Below, piece by piece: positions 22,438-24,949 of a stretch of 64,000 bases of DNA (positions are counted from its first letter, which is position 1; each line of letters opens with the position of its first letter). This DNA is from Sphingopyxis sp. JAI128 (GTDB lineage Bacteria; Pseudomonadota; Alphaproteobacteria; Sphingomonadales; Sphingomonadaceae): assembly GCF_014207235.1 (NCBI RefSeq), contig NZ_JACHDA010000008.1, positions 1-64,000 on the forward strand. Reading direction: 5' to 3'. Both the position numbers and the translations under genes were made by a program. The notes below the pieces were generated by a model, which was not told the origin of the DNA, searched no databases, and saw nothing but the letters and a program-made list of their open reading frames with translations.

Positions 22438-23547
22438 CTATCCTGCCCCGATCCGCCCGTCCGCGATATGAAAGCGCGTCACCGGTCCCGGCATGTCGTC
22501 GAACAACGCCCCCTCGGTGCCCGTCAGCCACGCCTGCCCCCCCTGCCCCGCAAGCCGTTCGTAGAGTGCGCCGCGGCGCAGCGGGTCGAGATGCGCCGCA
22601 ACCTCGTCGAGCAGCAGCACCGGCCGCTGTCCGCGCAGCCGCGCGACGCAATCGCTGTGCGCCAGAACGAGCGACAGCAGCATCGCCTTCTGTTCGCCGG
22701 TCGAGCAGCGCGCTGCAGCGCGGCCGGTTGCGGCATGAACCGCCGACAGGTCGTCGCGATGCGGCCCTGCGGTCGCGCGCCCGGCGGCGGCGTCGATGCG
22801 GCGACGGCCCGCGAACAGCGCCTTCAGCGCCTCGACCTCGTGCGGCGCGCTGCGCGCATCGCCCTCGCTGTCGACAAGTGTCAGCAGCGGGCGGGCGAAG
22901 GGCGCATCGGGCAGCGCGGCGAGTTCGGCCGATAGGGCGGCGAGCATATGCTGGCGCGCCGTGTCCATCGCGGCGCCATGTTCGGCGAGCTGCGCTTCGA
23001 GACTCGCGAGCCACCCCGCATCGGCGGCCGGCAGGTCGACGAGCAATTTGCCGCGCGCGCGCAGCGCCGCTTCATAGCGGTTGCTGTGCTGCGCGTGGCG
23101 CGGGTCGAGCGCGAGCACGAGCCGGTCGAGGAAGCGGCGGCGGTTGCCCGCGGTTTCGACGAACAGCCGGTCCATCGCCGGAGTCAGCCACAATATCGCA
23201 AGCCATTCGCCGAGCGCAGTCGCCGCCGCCGCAGCGCCGTTGATCCGCACGATGCGGCGCCCCGAATGCGCGGGCTCGGTCCCGGTACCGAGCGCGACCG
23301 GCGGCAGGTCCACCCCAGCCTGGAGTTCAGCGAACACGGCGAAGCCCCCGCTTGCCCCGTCGCGCACCATGTCGAGGAGCGCCGCGCGCCGCAGTCCGCG
23401 ACCCGGCGCGAGCAGCGAGATCGCTTCCAATATGTTGGTCTTGCCCGCGCCATTGTTGCCGTGCAGCGCGACCAGCCCCGCTGCGGCCGCCATGTCCGCG
23501 CCGGCGTGATTGCGAAAATCGGTTAACGAAAGGCGGGTCAGCGTCAT
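22438..23547 (-). CDS. recF: DNA replication and repair protein RecF
   Basis: An SMC-like ATPase that, with RecO and RecR, loads RecA at single-strand gaps. The 369-residue protein starts [12 protein letters not shown] and has Walker [19 protein letters not shown], the [16 protein letters not shown] RecF signature, the ABC signature-like [17 protein letters not shown] and Walker [18 protein letters not shown]. It is not next to dnaA/dnaN here, in line with many alphaproteobacteria where recF has moved. Confidence 0.95.
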
Positions 23548-23624
23548 CCTTTTCTGCGCCTACCGCAGCGCCCGCAACGACACCAGCCCGACGCGCGCAT
23601 CTTTCGAAAGAATATTTTTCGTCA

Positions 23625-23643
23625 AATGGCAATTTTCACCATT
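23625..23643. promoter_or_regulatory. Possible upstream activator site for the sigma-54 promoter
   Basis: A short inverted repeat AATGG-9-CCATT lies about 75 bp upstream of the -24/-12 element, the distance range used by enhancer-binding proteins. The arms are only 5 bp, so chance is quite possible. Confidence 0.25.
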
Positions 23644-23715
23644 CATGCGCAAATTTCCCGTTTGAATATCGGGTCGCGATTCAGAAAATGGCGCTTAACC
23701 GCCAATTAATGAAAT

Positions 23716-23731
23716 TGGCACGCCCCATGCA
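23716..23731 (+). promoter_or_regulatory. Sigma-54 (RpoN) -24/-12 promoter for the pspC operon
   Basis: TGGCACGCCCCATGCA matches the sigma-54 consensus TGGCACG-N4-TTGCA at all but one position, with the invariant GG and GC correctly spaced. The predicted transcript start is near 23743, giving a leader of about 44 bases with a strong AAGGAAGGA ribosome site before ATG 23787. Psp operons in enterobacteria are sigma-54 dependent, which supports the call. Confidence 0.75.
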
Positions 23732-23786
23732 TAACTGCTGGCATCCACCGGATGGCCGGATGGAAGGTTCAAGGAAGGATAAAATC

Positions 23787-23915
23787 ATGGCTCATTTCAA
23801 CGTTCACGCCGTCAAGAGCTACGCGCTTGCTGCTTTCGCTTCAGTCTATGCCTCGGTGATGTTGCTCGCAATCGTCGGTCAGAATGGTGCGCAGGTCGGT
23901 TCGCTGGTCGTTTGA
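23787..23915 (+). CDS. Small single-span membrane peptide upstream of pspC
   Basis: A 42-residue peptide, MAHFNVHAVKSYALAAFASV at its start, with one hydrophobic helix (about residues 12-31) and a short polar tail. It has a very good ribosome site (AAGGAAGGA) and is the first gene behind the sigma-54 promoter, so it is likely real. I know of no characterised homologue. Its position suggests a role in the envelope-stress response with the PspC protein encoded 60 bp downstream. Confidence 0.7.
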   Translation: MAHFNVHAVKSYALAAFASVYASVMLLAIVGQNGAQVGSLVV

Positions 23916-23975
23916 TCGGCGAACCCCACCAGCCTTCGATAACGCCGGCCCCGAGCCGGGATGGAAAGGAAAGAA

Positions 23976-24155
23976 ATGAAACAGGGTTTTCGCAAGAATC
24001 GTCGCGACGGGATGATCTTCGGCGTGTGCGCCGGAATGTCAGAACAGTTCGGTATCGACGTCTTGTGGACGCGCGTCGGCTTTGTCGCCCTGACGCTTCT
24101 AGGCTTCGGCCTGCCTCTGCTGCTGTACCTCGCCGTCGCGATCCTCGCGCCCTAG
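23976..24155 (+). CDS. pspC: PspC-domain membrane protein
   Basis: A 59-residue minimal PspC domain: FRKNRRDGMIFGVCAGMSEQ (the family's GVCAGxA-like motif), then FGIDVLWTRVGFVALTLLGF and a second hydrophobic run ending LAVAILAP. PspC proteins sense or transmit membrane stress, in enterobacteria by binding PspA. ATG 23976 is preferred over 23961 because GGAAAGGA sits just before it. No pspA, pspB or pspF is in this window. A terminator follows 62 bp downstream. Confidence 0.88.
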   Translation: MKQGFRKNRRDGMIFGVCAGMSEQFGIDVLWTRVGFVALTLLGFGLPLLLYLAVAILAP

Positions 24156-24216
24156 GACAGCCCGGGCCGGCCGCCTTACAGGCGCAGTCGCACCGGCCCG
24201 CATATTTCCAAGGACC

Positions 24217-24249
24217 AAGGGCCCACCGGCCAGACCGGTGGGCCCTTTT
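24217..24249 (+). terminator. Intrinsic terminator after pspC
   Basis: GGGCCCACCGG pairs with CCGGTGGGCCC and is followed by TTTT. It closes the pspC operon. It also abuts the frame-2 stop codon of the convergent secreted-protein gene (24249-24251), so it probably once served both transcripts. Confidence 0.85.
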
Positions 24250-24331
24250 CATTTGGGGCGCACGGTGAAACGGTAAGGAATATAGAGGAACACCTCGGTC
24301 GCGCTCGCCTGCGCCCAGATCAGTTGCTCAT

Positions 24332-24949
24332 TCAGCCCCGCGACCTCACGCCATAGTCGGGTCCGAAGGCGCCGGCGGTCTTGAGCGCCTCGTCCGCGAC
24401 CAGCTTGACGATCTCGGGCCGATACTGGTCGGGGTTGATGATCGTGAGCGTAATGGCGCCGCGCCGTTCGATCAGCGCGCGCCCTTCGGCCGGCACGACC
24501 TTGATGAAATTGTCGATCCGCGACTGCGCGCTGCCGACCGATCCGCCCAGCTTCGCCTTTACATAGACCGCAATCTCGCTGGTATCCGGACGTCCCCCGC
24601 TCCGGAAGGCGAGGTCGCTATAGTTGGCAAGCGTTACTTTGGTCAGCTCGAATTCGCCGGTGACCAGTTCAACCCCAGCGGCGTCGGTACGCCTGATCGC
24701 GCTCTCGATCATCGCATGGATCTCGCGCTTGCGGACGTCGGCGTCGCGCGAATCCGAAGTGAATTTAACCGGCTGGATGGCGCTGTCGGCCGCCCGCCGC
24801 AAGCCGACGACGGTCTGTTCGTCGGAGAGATAATCGGCCGAGGCGCGTTGCCCCGTCACAACCACTTCCCCCATGATATTGCTATTGTCCTGCGCTGCAG
24901 CAGGAGCGCCCGCCGCCAGCATCGCCGCCGCGATCATACCGATACGCAT
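24332..24949 (-). CDS. Secreted hypothetical protein with an apparent C-terminal frameshift
   Basis: A 205-residue product as read, with signal peptide MRIGMIAAAMLAAGAPAAAQ and a mature start GEVVVTGQRASADY, which looks like the VVTG segment seen near TonB boxes. It continues with SDSRDADVRKREIHAMIESA and a core ending AFGPDYGVRSRG. Just past this stop, the other frame continues as GLNEQLIWAQASATEVFLYI then PYRFTVRPK and stops at 24249, exactly at the terminator. That tail looks like a genuine C-terminus of this family, so a 1- or 2-base indel near 24345-24355 probably shortened the protein by about 30 residues. Function unknown. ATG 24949 is chosen. Confidence 0.75.
   Translation of the reverse strand: MRIGMIAAAMLAAGAPAAAQDNSNIMGEVVVTGQRASADYLSDEQTVVGLRRAADSAIQPVKFTSDSRDADVRKREIHAMIESAIRRTDAAGVELVTGEFELTKVTLANYSDLAFRSGGRPDTSEIAVYVKAKLGGSVGSAQSRIDNFIKVVPAEGRALIERRGAITLTIINPDQYRPEIVKLVADEALKTAGAFGPDYGVRSRG

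Follow-up and report, generated by a model that had tools for sequence, protein, structure and literature searches.

A sigma-54-dependent peptide–PspC unit of Sphingopyxis sp. JAI128 as a predicted satellite operon of the PspF regulon

The analysis of the 64-kb stretch of DNA considered here (the window) indicates that a short sigma-54 unit encoding a 42-residue membrane peptide and a 59-residue PspC is probably a satellite operon of two genes within the PspF regulon, transcribed with the activator of pspA and supplementing the Psp machinery. The comparison of related genomes supports this assignment through the promoter, the similarity of the operator to that of pspA, the co-conservation of the two genes, the coding status of the peptide and the coexistence of the unit with a complete pspFABC set. 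From these we infer PspF binding, induction by stress and an interaction between the peptide and PspC. The features of the unit are as follows:

23616..23658, strand not assigned: predicted PspF-binding region (UAS), from matches to a motif of pspA upstream regions; it starts about 100 bp and ends about 57 bp upstream of the -24 element
23715..23730, plus strand: sigma-54 -24/-12 promoter TTGGCAC-GCCCCA-TGC, TTGGCACGCCCCATGC, from the sequence pattern and 73/73 same-genus loci
23744..23764, plus strand: 5'-UTR stem-loop TCCACCGG-ATGG-CCGG(A)TGGA, from the hairpin in orthologous UTRs
23772..23779, plus strand: ribosome-binding site AGGAAGGA of the 42-aa peptide, from the sequence
23787..23915, plus strand: 42-aa single-span membrane peptide without a Pfam or NCBIfam family, from profile searches, conservation and codon substitutions
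23976..24155, plus strand: short stand-alone PspC of 59 aa (PF04024, 66.3 bits, cutoff 25)
24217..24247, plus strand: intrinsic terminator closing the unit, a hairpin with a 13-bp stem followed by a T-rich tail

The promoter sequence TGGCACGCCCCATGCA at 23716-23731 has the spacing GG-N10-GC, i.e., 10 bases separate the GG at -24 from the GC at -12 (TTGG-N10-GC, 23715-23730), which is the arrangement taken here to define a sigma-54 promoter. The sequence-only reading of this DNA had proposed an RpoN promoter that is rare by chance, and both points were borne out: the window has a single copy of the pattern TTGGCACNNNNNNTGC, where shuffles lead one to expect 0.15, and the 4.1-Mb genome has 16, where the reversed control has three. 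A stricter pattern, TGGCACN5YTGCA, gave eight genome matches against two for the control; the window site falls outside it because its -14 base is A, the usual base being C or T. Sites ending in ATGC exist among the Salmonella sigma-54 sites given in PMC3844500, e.g., that of zraP. Conservation of the -24/-12 element had been named beforehand as the point on which the proposal could fail, and TGGCA[CT]-N6-TGC was found upstream of the peptide in all 73 same-genus peptide loci. In the alignment of these 73 upstream regions, TTGGCACG and CTGCA are kept at 95% or more; the 20 bp immediately 5' of the -24 element are also fairly conserved, and most of the other flanking sequence is much less so. 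The search for a sigma-70-like promoter in 23500-24400 found none. From the usual promoter spacing, the transcription start is predicted near 23742.

The tiny single-span peptide of the earlier reading was likewise recovered at 23787-23915, with its best 19-residue hydrophobic stretch at residues 13-31. By sequence, it is present in 73 of the 80 same-genus genomes, including the own genome, and in none of the 68 other genomes of the order; its length is 42 aa in 56 of the 73 loci and 37-43 aa in the others. Purine-rich stretches resembling its ribosome-binding site were seen by eye in other listed upstream regions. Among the 54 unique 42-aa versions, the pairwise differences at codon positions 1/2/3 amount to 13901/6895/20365, and the nonsynonymous/synonymous ratio is approximately 0.23. 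The openness of the frame is no proof by itself, because 48 of these 54 versions are open in frame 2 as well; it is the substitution pattern that carries the case that the peptide is coding and that its amino-acid sequence is under purifying selection. The hydrophobic span is retained in the diverged versions that were measured. The Pfam and NCBIfam libraries contain models of PspD and PspG. The comparison of the peptide with both libraries gave no match up to an E value of 1, profile searches being weak for so short a protein. The peptide is missing from seven same-genus genomes: three are 77-90% complete, two (G042 and G075) carry a diverged version with two promoters in tandem, and G015 and G017, both 99% complete, have two PspC matches against three in most of the genus.

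The minimal PspC of 59 residues proposed earlier was confirmed as a member of the PspC family by the PF04024 model (66.3 bits, cutoff 25). The TIGR02978 model for the full-length equivalog gave 47 bits against a cutoff of 104 and covered positions 4-57 of 121, below what is expected of the complete protein. The reading frame ends at 24155 and counts 59 aa from the ATG at 23976 or 64 aa from the ATG at 23961, and a PspC reading frame lies downstream of the peptide in 73/73 same-genus peptide loci. A third PspC-domain match of the genome lies at C5:206598 (33.2 bits) and is apparently a 116-aa ORF. Upstream, the unit is bordered by a divergent gene at 22438-23547, which we take to be recF; of the 73 same-genus loci, 72 have a recF match in the flanking sequence retrieved.

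The same genome carries a complete Psp system. The presence of rpoN (PF04552, 212.7 bits) and of a PspF-type activator such as had been sought (TIGR02974, 471.5 bits, cutoff 443.55) was confirmed, and on contig C3 (L018) pspF is divergent from an operon of a 56-aa membrane peptide, pspA, pspB and pspC, the last three being equivalogs above cutoff. The pspA promoter of this locus, on the strand opposite to pspF, is TTGGCACGCCTCCTGCA. Among the 148 relatives, PspF is above cutoff in 135 and has an E value of at most 1e-100 in 137, and pspA matches occur in 138. A TGGCA[CT]-N6-TGCA site and a membrane peptide of 43-57 aa stand ahead of pspA in 30/30 of the Sphingopyxis loci listed (own included). 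At 13 further pspA loci the promoter was found in 13/13 and the peptide ahead of pspA in 11 by script; the peptide of L156 was seen by eye, and L158, from another family, has none. Homology of the window peptide family with these pspA-leader peptides was considered and not supported (hhalign probability 3.3%). Downstream of pspC in the own C3 locus (L018:1005-2474, minus strand) several small ORFs of PspB-like layout were noticed by eye, of which two give weak matches to the PspB model (E values 2.2e-5 and 0.0099); PMC11237479 mentions duplicates of PspB in psp operons.

The presence of pspF, pspA, pspB and a full pspC at a separate locus means that the window unit is not a replacement of pspA/pspB; it is an extra unit beside a full Psp system. 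The sequence-only reading, in which a reduced phage-shock response had a new gene in place of pspA/pspB, thus holds in part: the sigma-54 promoter, the peptide, the minimal PspC, the link to Psp and the predicted PspF activator stand, whereas the replacement has to be given up.

The layout of the unit extends beyond its close orthologs. It is shared by 7/7 second-PspC loci from other or divergent genomes, with diverged peptides. Five of these loci come from other genera of the family (G080, G081, G083, G085 and G088) and two from divergent same-genus genomes; the set was drawn without G082, in which the second PspC lies beside the first near pspA, and without G087, and G084 and G086 have a single PspC only. 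In total, the seven loci have nine promoters, each followed by one to three peptides of 35-43 aa and by PspC. In L140, L142 and L143 the stop codon of the last peptide overlaps the PspC start as ATGA, which suggests that the translation of the peptide and of PspC would be coupled there. In the two divergent same-genus loci, L144 (G075) and L145 (G042), a pair of sigma-54 promoters lies in tandem, some 770 bp from each other; they are followed by two and one small peptides, respectively, with a PspC-domain match after each, an arrangement that is read from the sequence as a local duplication of the whole unit. In a named set of 59 loci, which consists largely of the same genomes again, a promoter lies at most 600 bp upstream of the match in 50 loci, that of Sphingobium boeckii (L209) among them, and the nine without one are all from other phyla, among the matches listed in both cases.

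The predicted PspF-binding region was located with position weight matrices from 12 pspA upstream regions, a set to which neither the window operon nor the own genome contributed. The matrices were trained on the 100 bp next to the promoter, with widths of 18, 22 and 26 and with sets of 8 (other-genus) or 12 sequences. The reliance on the 22- and 26-mers of the 12-sequence set was decided after the results were seen, and the P values are uncorrected and come partly from related genomes that are not independent. An initial motif from 200 bp upstream of pspA locked onto the pspF coding sequence, gave no signal in the window operon and was discarded. The best matches in the window are 23616-23641 and 23628-23649 (minus strand), in a region where the block AATTTTCC...GGGAATTTTCACC is moderately conserved in the 73-locus alignment. 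The window operator scored 10.8 bits with the 22-mer and 15.7 bits with the 26-mer of the 12-sequence set, with shuffle P values of 0.027-0.040 and 0.003-0.010, respectively; with eight training sequences P was 0.099 and 0.020. The 18-mer motif failed at the window site (P 0.356 with 12 training sequences and 0.604 with 8). In the genus, P<=0.05 was reached by a fraction of 0.19, 0.85 and 0.90 of the 73 loci for the 18-, 22- and 26-mers with 12 training sequences and of 0.22, 0.56 and 0.74 with 8, and the median position of the motif in the genus was -97 for the 22-mer and -100 for the 26-mer. The operator signal is therefore dependent on motif width and training set: a PspF-regulon operator is predicted by the 22- and 26-mers and not by the 18-mer.

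Similar results were obtained for the nine second-PspC promoters of other or divergent genomes. With 12 training sequences, P was at most 0.012 at 9/9 promoters for the 22-mer and at 8/9 for the 26-mer, the one miss being L145+654 (P 0.142), and at most 0.022 at 4/9 for the 18-mer; with 8 sequences, P<=0.05 was reached at 7/9, 8/9 and 4/9 for the 22-, 26- and 18-mers. The 22-mer lies at -97/-98 at five of these promoters and at -87 or -107 at the other four. When the 16 TTGGCAC-N6-TGC sites of the genome were ranked, pspA came first (23.9/23.3 bits with the 22-/26-mer) and the window second (10.8/15.7) in both widths, the next-best scores being 6.6 and 6.7. Two other sigma-54-like sites passed P<=0.05, each at a single width: L235 (0.03) and L230 (the same as L097, 0.01-0.037), with scores below that of the window; L094, a site of another sigma-54 pattern, scored 7.7 with the 22-mer. 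Among 576 overlapping windows of the own genome, whose source loci include one with the true pspA operator, the window site is in the top 1.0% (22-mer) and 0.35% (26-mer). The motif also matches the E. coli pspF-pspA (P 0.004, 0.006) and dusA-pspG (P 0.002, 0.012) intergenic regions, and pspA and pspG are given as established PspF targets in PMC2763126 and PMC9239133. The motif learned from pspA would be PspF's own site. At L158, a pspA locus from another family, the upstream region gave no motif score. Elsewhere in the genome, a sigma-54-like site TTGGCACGGCTCCTGC (L231, C5:275692) about 0.7 kb from the sigma-54 activator gene C5:274497 was without a PspF operator score in the motif test.

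The unit could be driven with sigma-54 by another enhancer-binding protein and thus stand outside the Psp response. The sigma-54 activator domain PF00158 has 12 matches in the genome, eight of them strong, PspF among them, and the window operator is weaker than that of pspA in both widths. We nevertheless regard this as quite unlikely: pspA and the unit have an operator in common at a similar distance in several genera, the remaining 14 of the 16 sigma-54-like genome sites score below both, and the presence of a PspC gene is itself a pointer to Psp. A reduced Psp system that stands alone and works without PspA, as read earlier, has a precedent in other phyla, where PMC9239133 notes PspC lying outside operons and unaccompanied by PspA; with pspA in 138 and PspF (E <= 1e-100) in 137 of the 148 relatives and pspFABC in the own genome, it is contradicted for this genome and highly improbable.

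It has also to be considered that the 42-aa ORF is a regulatory leader, in which an upstream ORF and the 5'-UTR hairpin would set PspC translation and the peptide itself would be inert. A small ORF does stand at the head of both psp transcripts, ATGA overlaps occur in some genera, and the hairpin, which sits right after the predicted transcription start, shows some compensatory changes. It is formed in 55 of 60 unique genus UTRs, with a median energy z of only -1.3; only 17% of the 60 have z < -2, so that the thermodynamic support is weak. Changes on both sides affect five of its nine pairs in 21 hand-picked UTRs and four of five measures exceed every shuffle, and the structure shifted by -1 has a greater covariation score (0.168 vs 0.152); the support for a conserved structure is therefore mixed. 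Against an inert peptide stand the purifying selection on its amino-acid sequence, the hydrophobic span kept in the diverged versions measured and the two or three peptide ORFs in tandem at some loci, which make the leader reading unlikely.

As a satellite of the PspF regulon, the unit may work as follows. Membrane stress would free PspF, made from the separate pspF-pspA locus, from PspA; that PspA keeps PspF inactive until membrane stress releases it is established for E. coli according to PMC2763126 and PMC9239133. PspF would then bind about 100 bp upstream of 23715 and, as at pspA, activate transcription by the sigma-54 polymerase. The resulting mRNA, ending at 24217-24247, would yield the 42-aa single-span peptide and the 59-aa PspC without the C-terminal half, both predicted inner-membrane proteins. 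These may act together, since they are co-conserved and their genes overlap at some of the loci from other genomes, and as co-made membrane partners they could supplement Psp membrane sensing or protection in the manner of E. coli pspG. The peptide is likely to serve the short PspC as an inner-membrane partner or effector that is made along with it. A wider and distinctly tentative idea is that transcripts driven by PspF in Sphingomonadaceae generally start with a small, rapidly evolving single-span peptide, in the pspA operon and in the short-PspC satellite alike, and that these peptides form a new class of Psp effectors or feedback elements, e.g., tuning PspC or the proton-motive force. As an analogy only, the small E. 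coli membrane protein YohP is described as dissipating the membrane potential and inducing psp (PMC12719787).

PspF and its regulon were worked out in enterobacteria. From the sequence, a functional PspF regulon is predicted for Sphingomonadaceae; it would have a second target of its own, a second, bare PspC and membrane peptides that are uncharacterised. The unit offers a clear test of PspC function apart from PspA, and it also bears on why short membrane peptides start a membrane-stress response. According to the survey PMC9239133, a role of PspF in the Psp response had been described from Enterobacteriaceae alone, and E. coli has just one further known PspF target outside the psp operon, namely pspG. 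Titles and abstracts on PspF or phage shock in Sphingomonadales, the PspF regulon and pspG, PspF comparative genomics, and PspC with small membrane proteins contained no description of the unit. The main text of the two Psp surveys (PMC9239133, PMC11237479) has no word beginning with Sphingo, and PspC has a column of its own in a table of a paper on Novosphingobium genomes (PMC5443232). PspB duplicates and PspC outside operons are known features, as these surveys note them; what appears to be new here is the PspF-regulon satellite with its unfamiliar peptide.

Compared with known systems, the unit is closest in layout to E. coli pspG, which is likewise a separate sigma-54 unit for a small predicted inner-membrane protein (PMC9239133, PMC2763126), and the upstream regions of both are matched by the motif derived from Sphingomonadaceae pspA. 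Unlike the window unit, pspG is annotated as a single gene without PspC; the 42-aa peptide, having no family match, is likened to PspG by layout and not by direct alignment. In E. coli K-12, pspG is followed immediately downstream by pspH, which is annotated as a small RNA (L219:2140-2250). With classical PspC (PF04024/TIGR02978) the window protein shares the domain above the Pfam cutoff and the conserved GVC and arginine positions, whereas it is only 59 aa long, lacks the C-terminal half and stays under the equivalog cutoff (47 vs 104 bits). The canonical pspF-pspABC locus (L018) has the same kind of promoter, a similar operator and a small membrane peptide first, as the window unit does; however, this first peptide is not detectably homologous to that of the window (the same 3.3% in hhalign), and the canonical locus contains pspA, pspB and a full pspC where the window unit has the short PspC only.
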